In this document: piece by piece, positions 6,493-12,745 of the stretch
Layout of the letters: each line of letters opens with the position of its first letter
Position numbering within the stretch: position 1 is the first letter of the stretch
Source of the DNA: a virus
Direction: 5' to 3' (one strand)
Length of the DNA stretch: 24,451 nt
IMG/VR virus record: IMGVR_UViG_3300013306_000055
Location: 1 to 24,451 of that record
Position numbers and translations under genes: made by a program
Notes under the pieces: generated by a model
The model's database searches: none
What the model saw: only the letters and a program-made list of their open reading frames with translations
Told to the model about the DNA's origin: nothing

Positions 6493-7380
6493 CTAGGGAA
6501 GTGTGGCGGGGTCGGTGGGGACGGTGTCGCCGTAGTAGCGCCCGCCAGCGTTGAACTGCTTGTTGAACTCGGCAAGGTCCGCGGCGTTGGCCGCGTCGTA
6601 GGTGCGGCCCGAGACTGTCAGGTCTTCGATGTAGCCGCGATAGAAGACATGCGCGCCGTGGAGGCCCGCCTTCCCTGCGCCAGCGTTGATGGTCAGGAAG
6701 TTGCCCAACTCGAAGATGGAGTAGCGTCCTGCCGTGCTTACCTGCCCGGTGAAGCTGACCGCAGGGTTGGTGACGCCCTGGTTGCGGATCATGGGAGTGT
6801 TCAGCACGCCGCGATCCTTGCCGACTACTCCGAGTGATGTGCCGCCCTGCGACCCGCCCGCCGAGACGGTGCCGAGGCCGAACAGGTAGGAATCGCCCGC
6901 CGACTGCGACGCACCGCCGAACACATCATTCGAGCCGGTCGCGATCTTTGTCGGCTTCGCCCAGTGCGAGAAGTAGTAGGAGTGCGACGGGTTGGCCTTG
7001 ATGTAGTCGATGATCGCCAGCGGGATCTGCGCTTGAAAGCCCTGGTTGCTGGCCGTCTGCGTCTGGGACTGGATCGCGTGGATGCCGCCCCGGGGGGTCC
7101 GCTCCACCTTGCCCGTAGTCCCAGACATGCCAATGACCTGCATGGGAACATCAAGGGTGGTTTTGTCCGTGACGCCTAGCGTGTGTGCTGCGACGTCGCG
7201 GACAAGGTTGGTGATCTTCGCCCCGTTGACGGGCACGCCGGACGGGAACGTGCCCAGCGTGTGCGCTGCTTCGATGAGGAGCAGCGAACCAGCGGCCTCG
7301 ACCCGGTCAATAGCGTTCAGGTACTCGTTGGACGAGCCGGTGAACTCGATGTCAAGTACCTGCAGTTTTCCGTTTGCCAT
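6493..7380 (-). CDS. Minor tail protein
   Basis: A 295-aa protein. I recognise no catalytic motif. It is Gly/Ser-rich with mainly beta-strand-like sequence. The end (YIEDLTVSGRTY, then FNAGGRYYGDT) resembles the end of LamG-like/concanavalin-like minor tail proteins of Arthrobacter and Microbacterium phages, in which such domains bind cell-surface sugars. The start is ATG 7380 with AAGGAG 8 bases upstream, partly inside the end of the preceding gene. Position between two fibre genes suggests part of the receptor-binding apparatus. Confidence 0.75.
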   Translation of the reverse strand: MANGKLQVLDIEFTGSSNEYLNAIDRVEAAGSLLLIEAAHTLGTFPSGVPVNGAKITNLVRDVAAHTLGVTDKTTLDVPMQVIGMSGTTGKVERTPRGGIHAIQSQTQTASNQGFQAQIPLAIIDYIKANPSHSYYFSHWAKPTKIATGSNDVFGGASQSAGDSYLFGLGTVSAGGSQGGTSLGVVGKDRGVLNTPMIRNQGVTNPAVSFTGQVSTAGRYSIFELGNFLTINAGAGKAGLHGAHVFYRGYIEDLTVSGRTYDAANAADLAEFNKQFNAGGRYYGDTVPTDPATLP

Positions 7381-7392
7381 CTAGGGCGCTCC

Positions 7393-9507
7393 TTAGTTCC
7401 AGTTGCGTGCGCGGATGCGTGCCGCGATTCGGGCGCCGATGACGTTGTATCCGGCCTGGTTGAAGTGGGTCGCGTCGGTCATGAGCGACGGAGGGATGTT
7501 GTTCGCCGCAATCGCTGCCGTGTCATCCGACGTAGGGGTGATCCCGGCGGCTGCGAGTCCGCTGCTGATCATGTAGGAACGCAGGTCCTCGAACCGGCTC
7601 CCGTATGCCGCCGCGAGAGCGGCGTTGACCGCGTCGTTGCCGGGCGTCGTCAGCCCGATCACGAGATAGCGCTTGTCGTACGGAGTGAGCCACGCAACCA
7701 TCGAGGCGATGTCGCGGAGGATGGCCGTCTGCTGGGTGGCGTTGTTCGTGCCGGCCCAGATGATGACGTTGTCCGCCCGCTTGCTGACGCCCTCAGTGCC
7801 GATAAACGGGGTGGAGGGCGGGCATGCGGTGGCGGAACCTGCGGCGTCCCTCGCGAACGTCCAGACGTGAGTGCTGGCGTCGTGGTAGAGGGTGCCGGGA
7901 ACTCCTGCGAGCGTGCCCTCCATGGCGAGGACGGACGTGCCAGAGGGGCGCCATCCGTCCGTAGGGGATACGACGGTCACGCCAACGCTGCCAGAAGCGG
8001 GGATAGAGTCGCCAGTCACGGTCAGCAAGGGACGGAGCCCGCCCTGCCTGACCGCGATTTCAAAAGTAGCCTGCCCCTGCCGCCCGCCGTTGTAGACGGG
8101 AACGCCGAGGTCAGCGGCAACAACTTCGGGCCATGTCGGGGACGCCTGCCCGGTCGCCTGGGAGTATGTGAGGGAGTCGCCCCACGCAGCCCAAGACGTG
8201 GTCGGAAACACTGGACGTCCGACGCCTGTTGCGGCTGTGATCCACTGCGGCCCGCTGCCCGTCTCAACCCGGACCGTGGACTGATCCAGCAGGGTCGGGT
8301 TCGAGGCGCCCGCGATGGTGCCCAGCAGGGCCCGAACACCCGTTGACGGGGTGTTCAGGTAGACCTTGCTGCCGCTCACTTCGGGCACGAGCGATTCAGT
8401 CGTGGAGCCGACGCCCATGCGGGCCTTTAGGGAGTCCACGACACGCTGAGTGAGCTTCCCATCCTTGGCGATCTCCAGGTCTGAGCGGCGCCGGGACGCA
8501 TCGACAACAGCCCACGCCACAACATCGTTGGACAGGACCGTCCAGCCAGTACCCAGCCCGGACGCAACCAGGTCATCGACACGGGATGTTTGCGCGACGT
8601 TGACCGCTTCGACAGCATCAATCCGGGCGTCGATGGATTCCCACGCCAGCCACCCGGAACTGTTGCGCATCCGGAAGTAGTGGCGGCTCGGCGTCCCGTA
8701 GGTGTCGGCGATGTGGACGCCGTTAGTCGCGGACCAGAAGAAGGACCGGAGCGTTATGACCGCGTTCTGCGGGTAGTTCAGGGACGCCCAGTTGGAGTCC
8801 GCCACCGCGGTGTAGGAGCCTGTGGTGATGATGGTGTTCAGGTTGGTTCCGGCGGCGAGGAGGAAGCCGTTGAGGCGCCCGTCCTGCTCAGTGTTCTTGA
8901 CCTCAACATTGTCGATCCGGGTTCCGAGCCCAGCGCTCTTGGAATCGGTGTAGGCCTTCGCGGCCACATCGCCCGCGTCGGTGTAGGTCTTCGCGTCCGC
9001 TACTGCGCCCGTGCGAGCCGCGGTAATCGCAGTGTCCTGCGAGGTGTTCTTCGACTCGACGGCGGTGAGTCGCCCGTCCTGCGTGACGTTCTTGTCGGTC
9101 AGCGAGTCAATCGCGGCCTGTTGGAGAACGTTGCCATCAGTACCCCTATCGCCCTTTGTGACCACCTTGTTCGGGAAGTTCATGGCGATCATGTCCGCGA
9201 TGGGTCCGCCAGCGTCGGGGACGAGGAGGCGCCACTTCGGGGTGATGCTCCGGCTAATGCCCTTCGACTGCCAATTAACCGTCAGCCTGTACAGTGCGTA
9301 GGGGTTCGTCGCGGTGGACGGATGCAGGTCCACGGAGAAGCTGCCATCACTGGCGGGCGTGACACTGACAGGCTCCTGCGGGATGAGTGTCCCGGACCCA
9401 GCAGTGACCATGTCCTCATCAATTTCGAACACCAGCTCGGGGGCGCGGTTCCCCAAGCTGACGAGCCCCACGTCCTTGAGGTAGCCGGTTACGGTGGCGA
9501 GTGCCAT
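7393..9507 (-). CDS. Tail fibre with C-terminal SGNH/GDSL hydrolase
   Basis: A 704-aa two-part protein. Residues about 1-120 are a beta-rich adapter like those starting phage fibres. Residues about 125-215 and 290-365 contain heptad-like stretches (QDGRLTAVESKNTSQDTAI; IDAVEAVN) expected of a trimeric coiled coil. The last about 270 residues are an SGNH hydrolase: GDS with nucleophile S445 (AAWGDSLTY), a glycine block at about 474 (VYNGGRQGQ), GTNN with N588, and D678-x-x-H681 (TDATHFNQAG). These enzymes remove ester groups; here the likely substrate is an acetylated wall or capsule sugar on the host. The start was set at ATG 9507 (GGAGG 6 bases upstream), not the upstream in-frame start at 9525. 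Confidence 0.88.
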   Translation of the reverse strand: MALATVTGYLKDVGLVSLGNRAPELVFEIDEDMVTAGSGTLIPQEPVSVTPASDGSFSVDLHPSTATNPYALYRLTVNWQSKGISRSITPKWRLLVPDAGGPIADMIAMNFPNKVVTKGDRGTDGNVLQQAAIDSLTDKNVTQDGRLTAVESKNTSQDTAITAARTGAVADAKTYTDAGDVAAKAYTDSKSAGLGTRIDNVEVKNTEQDGRLNGFLLAAGTNLNTIITTGSYTAVADSNWASLNYPQNAVITLRSFFWSATNGVHIADTYGTPSRHYFRMRNSSGWLAWESIDARIDAVEAVNVAQTSRVDDLVASGLGTGWTVLSNDVVAWAVVDASRRRSDLEIAKDGKLTQRVVDSLKARMGVGSTTESLVPEVSGSKVYLNTPSTGVRALLGTIAGASNPTLLDQSTVRVETGSGPQWITAATGVGRPVFPTTSWAAWGDSLTYSQATGQASPTWPEVVAADLGVPVYNGGRQGQATFEIAVRQGGLRPLLTVTGDSIPASGSVGVTVVSPTDGWRPSGTSVLAMEGTLAGVPGTLYHDASTHVWTFARDAAGSATACPPSTPFIGTEGVSKRADNVIIWAGTNNATQQTAILRDIASMVAWLTPYDKRYLVIGLTTPGNDAVNAALAAAYGSRFEDLRSYMISSGLAAAGITPTSDDTAAIAANNIPPSLMTDATHFNQAGYNVIGARIAARIRARNWN

Positions 9508-9530
9508 ATGGTGCCTCCTGGGCATGGGAA

Positions 9531-9549
9531 AGCCCGCGCACGGCGGGCT
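9531..9549. terminator. Stem-loop between lipoprotein and SGNH fibre genes
   Basis: AGCCCGC-GCACG-GCGGGCT forms a 7-bp GC-rich stem. On the + strand it is followed by GGGGTTTT, on the minus strand by only TTTCCC. It may insulate the lipoprotein promoter from rightward read-through, or weakly attenuate the late transcript ahead of the fibre gene. The U-tract is imperfect on both sides. Confidence 0.4.
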
Positions 9550-9553
9550 GGGG

Positions 9554-9582
9554 TTTTAATCTGTGAACCCATCGGCTACACT
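9554..9582 (+). promoter_or_regulatory. Possible promoter giving a leaderless lipoprotein mRNA
   Basis: TTTTAA (9554-9559), a 17-bp spacer and TACACT (9577-9582) resemble a sigma-A-type promoter with a TANNNT -10. The A of the ATG at 9589 is the 7th base after the -10, where transcription normally begins, and no ribosome binding site precedes the ATG. Together this suggests leaderless translation, common in Actinobacteria. Confidence 0.4.
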
Positions 9583-9588
9583 CAGCGC

Positions 9589-9900
9589 ATGGGGAAAATT
9601 GGGGGACTCGCGTTAGTGGCCGTACTCGGCCTAACCGGGTGCGCATCCTCGCAGGCTGCACCTGAACCAGCGAGCACCGTCACCGTTCAGCCGGTTCAGG
9701 TAGCGCAGCCCGTCAAGGTTGGCATCTACAAGGACATGTCAGAGCCCGAGTTCGCCGACTTTGAGCGCCGCCTGTGCGCGTCCATCGCCGCAGGCAACAC
9801 GGTCGAGGACACGGTTGCTATACAGATGAACTTCTTCGGACCGAAGGCCGCGGCGGACATGCGGACCGTGGGGAACTCGGTCAGAGACACCGCCTGCTAG
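9589..9900 (+). CDS. Phage-encoded lipoprotein (moron)
   Basis: A 103-aa protein with a lipoprotein signal: K3, a hydrophobic stretch to about residue 14, and the lipobox L15-T16-G17-C18, so the mature protein would be lipidated at C18 on the outer face of the membrane. A Pro/Val-rich spacer (about 25-45) leads to a small helical domain with C63 and C103, possibly disulfide-linked. The fold slightly recalls DUF732-type secreted proteins, but I do not recognise it. It is opposite to all its neighbours, has a possible leaderless promoter, and shares CTAG (9897-9900) with the next fibre gene's stop. Small phage lipoproteins of this type are known to block superinfection (for example Ltp of phage TP-J34); that role here is inferred. 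Confidence 0.82.
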   Translation: MGKIGGLALVAVLGLTGCASSQAAPEPASTVTVQPVQVAQPVKVGIYKDMSEPEFADFERRLCASIAAGNTVEDTVAIQMNFFGPKAAADMRTVGNSVRDTAC

Positions 9901-10733
9901 ACAACGCGGTAAATCCGGCCCGTTGCTGGATCGCAGTAGAGGTTTGGCGTAACCCCTGACCGGGTTTGCAGACCACCTATTGTGATTCCGTCTGACAGTA
10001 CGTTCACCGAAGTCCCGGAGTATGTGGCAATGGTTGCCGCACTTCCATCGACCACCACATAGGCCCCGGCGGCGTTCAGTGACGCCACGTCACCGGAGAT
10101 TCCAACCGCTGCCGCGCTACCGGACTTCGCCAATTGCGCGCCGCCCGGGGTAGCCGCGACGTAGGTTCCATTCGTGAACTTCACGCTGCCAGAAATGAAG
10201 CTTGGGTCAATCGTTACGGCCCCGGCGACAATCTTGCCCGTGGTGACGTTCAGGTCATTCTTCAGCGTGGTCACACCCTCAACCGAGAGTGTCCCGGTTG
10301 TCTTGGTTGCCCCGTTGAGGTTCGTTGGCCCGTTGTTCGTGAACGTACCCGTGCTGGTGACGTTGCCCGTTATGTCCGTTGCACCGTTGATATGGGTCGG
10401 ACCGTTTAGCTTCGTGTCACCCGTGACGGTTGCGTTGCCAGCAATGTTCGTGGGCCCGTTGAGGTTCGTTGTTCCAGTGAACGTGGATGGGCCGGACTGG
10501 GTTAGCGTGCCAGTGAACGCGATAGTCCCGTTAGCCTGGAGCGTGCCCGTAATCGTCGCCGTACCGGCGACGTTGAGCCCGCCATTGCTGATGGTGATGA
10601 CGCCGCCATTATAGACCTCAAATCCGCCTTCACCGACAGCTCCGGAGTTCATTGGCGAGGCATTCTCCAACGCCCTGAGTCGCCGGAAAATCTCACCGAT
10701 TTGAGACTGTGAAAGGTTGTCGATCAAGCCCAT
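9897..10733 (-). CDS. Minor tail protein with hexapeptide beta-fibre shaft
   Basis: A 278-aa protein. Residues about 8-26 (SQSQIGEIFRRLRALENA) form a short amphipathic helix. Residues 52-153 are 17 uninterrupted six-residue units with Gly at the sixth place, such as TTNLNG, PTNIAG, DTKLNG. This pattern is typical of intertwined trimeric beta-helical phage shafts. The tail domain (about 160-278) resembles fibre tips and ends with CDPATGRIYRVV. The start ATG 10733 follows the upstream stop by a single base. It lies between the tail-base gene and the first enzyme-bearing fibre, so is likely a central spike or side fibre. Confidence 0.85.
   Translation of the reverse strand: MGLIDNLSQSQIGEIFRRLRALENASPMNSGAVGEGGFEVYNGGVITISNGGLNVAGTATITGTLQANGTIAFTGTLTQSGPSTFTGTTNLNGPTNIAGNATVTGDTKLNGPTHINGATDITGNVTSTGTFTNNGPTNLNGATKTTGTLSVEGVTTLKNDLNVTTGKIVAGAVTIDPSFISGSVKFTNGTYVAATPGGAQLAKSGSAAAVGISGDVASLNAAGAYVVVDGSAATIATYSGTSVNVLSDGITIGGLQTRSGVTPNLYCDPATGRIYRVV
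10275..10580 (-). repeat. 17 hexapeptide (18-bp) coding repeats
   Basis: The six-codon period runs through residues 52-153 of the minor tail protein with no slip of register. Most units follow x-T/x-x-(hydrophobic)-x-G; NG and TG endings dominate. Confidence 0.85.
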
Positions 10734-10734
10734 G

Positions 10735-10860
10735 TCATAGCCCCGTAATCTTGAAGTCGCCTCCGCCTAGAGGTCCGAGCGGGGGAGCCTCCTCCAGAAC
10801 TTTTAGGCGCCATAGAATCTCATCGAGTTGAGCCCGTGAATCGTTGTCGTTTGACGTCAT
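10735..10860 (-). CDS. 41-aa protein like the N-terminus of the next fibre
   Basis: ATG 10860 to TGA 10735. The sequence SRAQLDEILWRLKVLEEAPP aligns with SQSQIGEIFRRLRALENASP of the following fibre protein, and both continue into a Gly-rich stretch with G(D/G)F. It is therefore a short duplicate of the fibre's N-terminal helix without shaft and tip. Starts one base after the upstream TGA and ends one base before the next ATG, so it is translationally coupled in the operon. The preceding base order around the start lacks a strong Shine-Dalgarno (GGAGCATGAC only). It may cap or co-assemble with the fibre, or be a decayed copy. Confidence 0.65.
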   Translation of the reverse strand: MTSNDNDSRAQLDEILWRLKVLEEAPPLGPLGGGDFKITGL

Positions 10861-10861
10861 G

Positions 10862-11959
10862 TCATGCTCCTGTAGGTTGGAATTCAAGCTTGACCTCGTG
10901 GCCAAGAGTGCCGCCGAGACTGCCGCTGAACTTGATCAGCCGATGTGATGTGATGCCAGTAGGTATCCATGGATCGCCCGCTGAGGTGATGCGTATGGTG
11001 TCGCCCAAGCTAAGGTCGGTCGCGCCCGGCGTGCCAGCCTTCAGGACCGACATGGAATACTGCCTGGTTGGGACCGACAACGCCCGCGAACGCTCAACCG
11101 CCAGATCGCCCAGCACGCCAAGACTCTTGACGCCCTTAAACGATGTGACGCCCTCAGCAGCGGGCCGGGAATGATCCGCAACAGGGTTAGAGCGGACCTT
11201 AGTGTTCTTCTCCGTACCCTCACCAGCCGCGTACGCGTTGTTAGCGAATCGGCTAGTGTCAGTTGTGGCGGACACCTTCAAGGCGGCTGCCTTCGGGGCG
11301 TCCAGGTTGTACTCCCACGAACCACCAGATGACAGGTTCGGAGCCGCCCGCATCACCCATTCCAGCGAACCCGACGAACCCCAACGCGGGGTGAAGTCAA
11401 TGTCCGGCCCGCCATCCGACTCCATAACGTTCTTCAACGAATCAGTGACAAGCTCCATCGTGTACCCGTAAAACGACCTTGTCGCAGTGCCGGAGACATC
11501 GGCAGGGAAAACGATAGGCAGCGAATACCAACCGCCCGGCGAGATAACTTCCTGCACAAGACGCTTAGCAATCGTCCCCAACGACAGCGGCCCGTAACTC
11601 AGCATCGCCGTCATGATGTTCGGAACCCCATGCGGGACGGCCATCCGATCAGCCAGGATCGACCAAATATCAGAATGGTCAACCCGTAGCGTCCCCGCGT
11701 CCTTGTCATAGCTGGTCCCGTCAATGACACCCGCAGCAACAACCGTCGCGCCGACCTCGTAAACCAGCGTGTTCGTCCGCTCCACAATCAGGCTACGACG
11801 ATCAAGCTTCTTCACCATCGAATCGTTCACCGGGATAGTCGCCTGCCCCGATGAACCCTCGTTGAAGCAGCGAGCCCAGGTGAAATCCGTTACCGGGATG
11901 ACGTTCAGCCGGGCGCCCGTGATCGTGTCGCACACCCAGACCCGTTCCAATGCAGTCAC
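10862..11959 (-). CDS. Tail-base protein, ReqiPepy6 Gp37-like
   Basis: A 365-aa protein matching the general layout of the siphovirus Gp37-like/tail-associated protein family: an N-terminal beta domain (RVWVCDTITGARLNVIPV; TWARCFNEGSSGQATIPV), a middle region, and a C-terminal part with SLGDTIRITS and a conserved end (GHEVKLEFQP). It forms part of the distal tail hub. The start is GTG 11959 with AGGAGG 4 bases upstream. It follows the distal tail gene by 9 bases and is followed at once by the small fibre-like gene. Confidence 0.8.
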   Translation of the reverse strand: MTALERVWVCDTITGARLNVIPVTDFTWARCFNEGSSGQATIPVNDSMVKKLDRRSLIVERTNTLVYEVGATVVAAGVIDGTSYDKDAGTLRVDHSDIWSILADRMAVPHGVPNIMTAMLSYGPLSLGTIAKRLVQEVISPGGWYSLPIVFPADVSGTATRSFYGYTMELVTDSLKNVMESDGGPDIDFTPRWGSSGSLEWVMRAAPNLSSGGSWEYNLDAPKAAALKVSATTDTSRFANNAYAAGEGTEKNTKVRSNPVADHSRPAAEGVTSFKGVKSLGVLGDLAVERSRALSVPTRQYSMSVLKAGTPGATDLSLGDTIRITSAGDPWIPTGITSHRLIKFSGSLGGTLGHEVKLEFQPTGA

Positions 11960-11968
11960 AGGGCCTCC

Positions 11969-12745
11969 TTAGATGTAGGTGTCAAGCAAGGTCACAGCCG
12001 CCGTGCCGGATCCTGTAGTGATCGGTTGGAGGCGCATGTCAGTCGCCAAAGAGCCACCCTGGATGCGCCACAAATCAGCACGTGTCACGCCACCCGAAAC
12101 AACCGAGCCATTACGGACCAGCAAGCCAGTAGACATGTCAATCGTGTGCGGAATCGCACCCAGCGCCGTAGTCACCCGATACTCGGCGCCGCCCGACGAC
12201 TGCAACACATACCCGCCCGGGAACGAACCCGATACGGTCACGGTCGGGTAGCCGACAGTGTTCCCGCGATGAAATAGCGTTGTGTAGCTCGAGCCTGACG
12301 AGATGCTGTACGTGTTCGTGCTGCCGTACTTCAAAGGGTTCGGGCACCACACTTGGATCTGGAACGACGCAATATCATTCCCGCCGATCTCGGTGAACAT
12401 CGTCTTAGCGGCCAAACGGCAATCAGCCCACTGCACATCACCATCACGCTCCACCTGGATCCGCCCAGTGTCGCCGCCAGCGAGGAGGCCTGTAAGCCTG
12501 CCCCGCAACCAGTGGAGTTGCCGGCCCGAATCGGCAATGGCGCTCCCACTGATAGCGACAGTCCGCGAACCCTGATACCCCGGCAAATCAAACATGCCGT
12601 GAGCCTGCGGACGCGGCAACTGATCCAACCGCATGTCAACGCCGTCATCCCAGCCCGCGAAACCATCAGGGGAAATAATGAACCCATCCGAGCCCTGCCC
12701 GTAAAAGTCCAGGCCCGCAATCGTGACCCTCAAACCGTCAGTCAT
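11969..12745 (-). CDS. Distal tail protein (Dit-like)
   Basis: A 258-aa protein downstream of the tape measure, where the Dit hub is expected. The N-terminal half (about 1-135) has the typical pattern: a beta-rich start, a GxxDMRLDQLPRPQAHG segment and FQIQVWCPNPLKYG, which marks the end of the conserved Dit ring domain. The remaining 120 residues (Gly/Ser-rich, SFPGGYVLQSSGGAEYRV) form a beta-sandwich extension that might bind carbohydrate. ATG 12745 overlaps the tape-measure TGA as ATGA. Confidence 0.85.
   Translation of the reverse strand: MTDGLRVTIAGLDFYGQGSDGFIISPDGFAGWDDGVDMRLDQLPRPQAHGMFDLPGYQGSRTVAISGSAIADSGRQLHWLRGRLTGLLAGGDTGRIQVERDGDVQWADCRLAAKTMFTEIGGNDIASFQIQVWCPNPLKYGSTNTYSISSGSSYTTLFHRGNTVGYPTVTVSGSFPGGYVLQSSGGAEYRVTTALGAIPHTIDMSTGLLVRNGSVVSGGVTRADLWRIQGGSLATDMRLQPITTGSGTAAVTLLDTYI

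Follow-up and report, generated by a model that had tools for sequence, protein, structure and literature searches.

Several described systems resemble the gene analysed here in part. Ltp of the Streptococcus thermophilus phage TP-J34 is a superinfection exclusion lipoprotein, encoded by a prophage and placed at the surface of a Gram-positive host; it is regarded as a moron (PMC3952083) and targets the tape measure protein. In the temperate mycobacteriophage Adephagia, the LprJ-like gp40 is expressed relatively strongly in the lysogen, with antisense read-through (PMC11373665), from a reverse-strand lipoprotein gene that lies near the integrase. DUF732 (PF05305) proteins of actinobacteria and their phages are small exported helical domains with two conserved cysteines, and morons in general have their own promoter, are optional in presence and are oriented opposite to their neighbours.

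The secreted moron described below shares with these systems, respectively, a prophage-encoded product at the surface of a Gram-positive host, a lipoprotein gene on the reverse strand of a temperate actinobacteriophage, a small exported domain with two conserved cysteines, and optional presence behind its own promoter. The differences are equally distinct. Unlike Adephagia gp40, for which no link to a fibre is described, it lies between tail genes. In contrast to Ltp, its variation follows a fibre domain, some of its carriers dispense with the lipid anchor, and the protein has no reported Pfam match to an Ltp-type family. Compared with DUF732 proteins, it falls below the profile, lies antisense in the tail operon behind an apparently leaderless promoter and appears matched to a fibre. 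Finally, compared with morons in general, no terminator of its own was found, and its mature domain goes with the structural gene next to it rather than being independent cargo.

The window, by which we mean the whole stretch of DNA that was analysed, is a virus record of 24,451 bases whose minus strand carries the head and tail genes, capsid and tape measure being recognised by Pfam. The features that define the locus are the following.

1039 to 2160, + strand: tyrosine integrase (PF00589, 66.7 bits), indicating a temperate lifestyle
7393 to 9507, - strand: next fibre gene, with a GDSL-type lipase/hydrolase domain (Pfam PF13472, 26 bits, below cut-off)
9531 to 9549, - strand: late-strand hairpin AGCCCGC-CGTGC-GCGGGCT, then TTCCC
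9589 to 9900, + strand: secreted moron, whole gene, an ORF of 103 aa
9897 to 10733, - strand: convergent fibre gene, 278 aa, in the same convergent arrangement in all carriers

Of the 19 carrier records that reach 24 kb or more, 17 contain a tyrosine integrase, and we therefore regard the carriers as temperate. The phage itself is best explained as a temperate actinobacterial siphophage; tail-gene similarity, the sole pointer to host genus, suggests the hosts of Arthrobacter and Glutamicibacter phages. We note that a 135-aa ORF near the integrase (331-738, + strand) carries an HEGIH zinc-protease-like motif that is ImmA/IrrE-like by eye and receives from Pfam a weak metallopeptidase match only (DUF6782); it is possibly a component of a lysogeny switch.

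An earlier note on this DNA had placed a lipobox-bearing 103-aa protein opposite to the late operon and between two fibre genes. This ORF is indeed present: it opens with an ATG at 9589, closes with a TAG stop at 9898-9900, and encodes a protein that begins MGKIGGLALVAVLGLTGC, then ASS, and carries the lipobox LTGC. The ORF fills the gap between the two late-strand fibre genes. Its stop overlaps that of the convergent fibre gene by 4 nt (CTAG) and, on the other side, 81 nt separate its ATG from the probable start of the GDSL-type fibre gene (ATG 9507, with an SD AGGAGG at 9514-9519, as read from the sequence). Consequently, its description as an antisense gene holds for the strand, which is opposite to the late operon, and not for overlap, since bar these 4 nt of stops it is antisense to no gene. 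An artefactual antisense frame in GC-rich DNA was considered and rejected: the open frame upstream of 9589 is the shadow of the next gene, and 9589-9900 lies outside that overlap. In addition, the arrangement is beyond chance because it is found in 34 contigs.

A terminator scan found no intrinsic terminator downstream of the moron on the + strand, where the convergent stops overlap. The late-strand hairpin lies within the late operon, after the convergent fibre gene and ahead of the SD that serves the next one. At this position about half of the carriers have stems of 6 bp or more, followed in several by a T-run; hairpin plus T-run is strong in L067, L114 and L117 and weak in the window. It is possibly an intrinsic terminator, an attenuator or a processing site, and in the window may act as a weak terminator or attenuator.

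The same slot recurs across related phages. A protein scan of IMG/VR gave four relatives at the same address, with near-identical promoter and signal DNA and a different mature domain. Scanning with the mature domain of these four led to 15 members, and scanning with the first 17 nt of the gene to further members with other mature domains; the non-family matches of this 17-nt DNA pattern were mostly chance. A scan with the neighbouring minor tail gene, regardless of moron presence, gave 65 loci, in which slot ORFs were chosen by opposite strand, convergence with the fibre gene and a signal peptide. The moron is present in 28 of the 54 loci having at least about 1 kb downstream, and these 28, the window, L018-L021 and L027 make up the 34 carrier contigs. 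In all 34 it converges with the same fibre gene, usually with the 4-nt stop overlap, so the prospect that no homologue would be found anywhere, which the earlier note had named as one half of a refutation, does not hold. Three further contigs were discarded, namely L013 and L014, chance signal-peptide matches from a genome-contig search, and L031, a false ClpP-like match.

In the remaining loci the moron is absent or the gap holds a plus-sense gene. In fact, two moron-less relatives carry a short plus-sense coiled-coil-like gene there (L072:5430-5680 and L070:5390-5660), and the place may therefore be a general insertion slot. The moron is also missing from two cultured phages that are related by their tail genes, Galaxy and BIM BV-113; six family proteins searched against 50,697 phage records gave no convincing relative, and a plasmid search for moron relatives gave none. 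Other cargo opposite to the late genes was seen in two contigs. L061 has a second antisense pair between tail genes (7002-7286 and 7283-7600, + strand; no Pfam match), of which the product of 7283-7600 resembles a ribbon-helix-helix protein by eye, and L024 has a 296-aa ORF between the fibre and minor tail genes (1247-2137, + strand; no Pfam match), homing-endonuclease-like or HTH-like by eye.

Upstream of the moron lie two candidate promoter elements.

9554 to 9560, + strand: upstream box TTTTAAT, -35-like, 16 nt from the -10 box
9577 to 9582, + strand: -10 box TACACT, 6 nt before the ATG

The first T of TACACT is at -12 and exactly 6 nt lie between the box and the ATG, so that a start 7 nt after the -10 box would fall on the A of the ATG, as the earlier note had proposed. 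Its companion claim, that there is no ribosome site, is borne out as well: no SD-like motif was found at -18 to -5. According to published work, leaderless actinobacterial genes are marked by a TANNNT whose first T lies about 12 nt before the start codon (PMC3160421), and the moron, with TANNNT at -12 and the SD absent, is accordingly predicted to be one of them.

This geometry is a property of the family. TANNNT lies 6-7 nt before the start codon in 33 of the 34 carriers (6 nt in 27, 7 nt in 6), the sole exception, L087, having an SD instead, and among genes picked by position and signal peptide only it is found at 6-7 nt in 27 of 28. As controls, 236 late-strand ORFs of at least 200 aa were all devoid of TANNNT at 5-8 nt, and among 11,851 ATGs of any kind just 40 are preceded by it at 6 nt. 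In the core group, WTTAAT (TTTAAT at 9555-9560 in the window) sits exactly 16 nt upstream of the -10 box in 15 of 16 loci, with ATTAAA in the remaining one, and within the loci scanned the pair of WTTAAT and -10 is confined to the moron gene; carriers further removed retain the -10 geometry and not the WTTAAT box. A generic sigma-70 consensus scan gives no promoter at the moron because it demands a TTGACA-like -35. Promoters with TANNNT but no -35 consensus are the norm in actinobacteria (PMC3898074, PMC3160421) and form the majority in M. tuberculosis (PMC3898074). The term moron, also used in the earlier note, therefore fits the gene in its optional presence and, as far as sequence evidence goes, in its own promoter, and does not fit it in respect of a terminator of its own.

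The protein has two parts.

9589 to 9639, + strand: signal peptide, residues 1-17 (MGKIGGLALVAVLGLTG), within the conserved promoter-signal island
9640 to 9897, + strand: mature secreted domain, apparently remote DUF732-type, from lipobox Cys18 and with Cys63 and Cys103 (C-x39-C)

Throughout the family, promoter and signal segment are almost fixed, whereas the mature domain after them is hypervariable, and the invariant residues among 22 diverse members are M1 and the two cysteines only. The mature core of class A is under purifying selection (median dN/dS 0.15, 78 pairs), and the moron therefore encodes a protein. The window protein has the lipobox expected of the lipoprotein that had been proposed, whereas lipid anchoring is not conserved: in six carriers (L018-L021, L088 and L113) the signal peptide is cleavable but lacks the lipobox cysteine. 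Anchoring is thus not essential, and export is the constant feature.

The relationship to DUF732 is remote. The class of L061 and L094 reaches 27.1 bits against the Pfam profile (cut-off 22.4), seven further members fall below the cut-off, and the window protein does not match the profile. A class A AlphaFold model (pLDDT 86) has as its best BFVD neighbours DUF732 proteins of Mycobacterium and Gordonia phages, with Foldseek probabilities of 0.84-1.0 but weak E-values, 0.16 or higher. The window's own model (pLDDT 59) was too poor for use; its mature domain aligns with the class C profile (hhalign probability 76%, E 2e-5), and class C in turn with the DUF732-hitting members (57%). From these chained hhalign links and the class A model, the window protein appears to be a remote DUF732-fold protein and not a Pfam member. 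PDB searches by fold and by sequence gave no match, and PADLOC returned nothing relevant. Known exclusion families match the moron at the level of the signal peptide only (e.g., the Cor PHROG, E 0.08).

The mature domain covaries with one part of the convergent fibre protein. The fibre function and the label ‘tip’ are both assigned from position.

9996 to 10169, - strand: fibre distal (‘tip’) domain, residues about 189-246

On loci de-replicated to 24, with P by permutation, distances between mature domains and between fibre distal domains correlate with a Mantel r of 0.78, and the partial correlation controlling for the final 24 residues of the fibre, whose codons separate the tip from the moron, is 0.75 (P < 0.0005). 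It is 0.63 without class A. The last 24 residues themselves give 0.13 once the tip is accounted for. For the fibre N-terminus r is 0.07, for the minor tail protein 0.16, and for the next gene, which lies roughly as near on the other side, -0.03. Class A mature domains keep to a single tip type (..NAGL..FAGA..) even with fibre ends of at least four types, and those of class C go with another (..QADIG..). The window and L025 are 93% identical over 10364-12337, and the promoter-signal segment 9513-9651 forms an island of 83% DNA identity amid non-homologous flanks, made up of the fibre tip and mature domain towards one end and the next fibre gene towards the other.

This covariation could be linkage only, with neighbouring variable DNA swapped as a unit; the moron would then be a lysogen-expressed surface protein, functionally independent of the fibre, that helps the host or keeps out unrelated phages through heterotypic defence or a surface change, an explanation we consider quite possible if on balance short of probable. 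The tip adjoins the mature domain, some 100 bp away, and part of the covariation may therefore be hitch-hiking of a cassette, for which the promoter-signal island and the fibre N-terminus, each of them conserved, could act as recombination anchors; moreover, other actinophages have lysogen-expressed heterotypic defence genes (PMC6426596). Three observations run counter to it: the intervening fibre end does not track the mature domain after control for the tip, the other-side gene at similar distance does not track it either, and class A mature domains keep the same tip type while fibre ends change. Linkage is thereby weakened and yet retains real weight, since the segments all lie within a few hundred bp, the closing one is both short and conserved, and no fine-scale correlation is seen among the 13 loci of class A (partial -0.05).

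Our preferred reading, held tentatively and at somewhat less than an even chance, is that the gene is a lysogen-expressed surface moron matched to its own phage's fibre tip, probably excluding phages with that tip. Expression in the lysogen appears likely from the tyrosine integrase of the carriers and the lysogen-expressed reverse-strand lipoprotein gene of Adephagia. The proposed course comprises several steps: (I) a leaderless mRNA of the moron would start from its own TANNNT promoter of host type, and for that reason the gene could be active in a lysogen whose late operon is silent; (II) late transcription, crossing the moron in the opposite direction, should silence it; (III) the product would be exported by its Sec signal, usually be lipid-anchored, and fold on the cell surface into a small disulfide-linked helical domain of DUF732 type; (IV) its variable mature domain would be matched to the neighbouring fibre's distal domain, the pair being inherited as a linked cassette; and (V) at the surface it would most likely act against particles with the matching tip, that is, in superinfection exclusion, or alternatively protect the lysogen and its released progeny from futile adsorption.

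Other roles are less probable. We judge it unlikely that the product is secreted to act on the host envelope as a modulator or in a toxin-like way: the DUF732 protein gp76 of Troll4 does inhibit the growth of M. smegmatis when overexpressed (PMC7474061), but such toxicity is unspecific, and the link to the fibre tip would be left unexplained. A part in virion assembly or lysis, as an export-side fibre chaperone or a spanin-like lysis lipoprotein, could account for the position among tail genes and the covariation with the fibre, and it seems decidedly improbable. The spanin matches, in Pfam, PHROG and NCBIfam, are weak and cover mainly the signal peptide and lipobox, so a spanin was rejected; furthermore, the moron protein is exported, whereas fibres assemble in the cytoplasm, and the gene, which runs counter to the late genes behind a promoter of its own, is missing from many relatives. 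That the promoter chiefly makes antisense RNA against the tail genes in the lysogen, the protein being secondary, is very unlikely given the purifying selection on the protein, its two invariant cysteines and its conserved signal peptide, even though no terminator was found between the convergent genes and the moron transcript would therefore run antisense into the fibre gene.

Returning to a surface moron matched to its own fibre, a broader form of this proposal is possible, and we advance it with greater reserve: the morons may be a family of exchangeable exclusion proteins, each encoded convergently with its own fibre and directed specifically at the distal domain of that fibre, so that tip and excluder move as one cassette and a lysogen refuses phages by fibre type and not by repressor type. 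The paired entry-exclusion systems of plasmids offer a comparison for an excluder with an adjacent target. Even without a functional match, the locus represents an antisense moron slot, predicted to be leaderless, whose position and promoter are conserved while its product is hypervariable, and of which the 50,697 phage records searched gave no convincing instance. If the match is functional, this would be a rare exclusion protein that can be read from the genome, with its target encoded next door, and sequence alone would predict which phages a lysogen excludes. It would also provide the first concrete function for DUF732, an unknown domain common in actinobacterial phages, and would identify the receptor-interacting domain of a fibre family.
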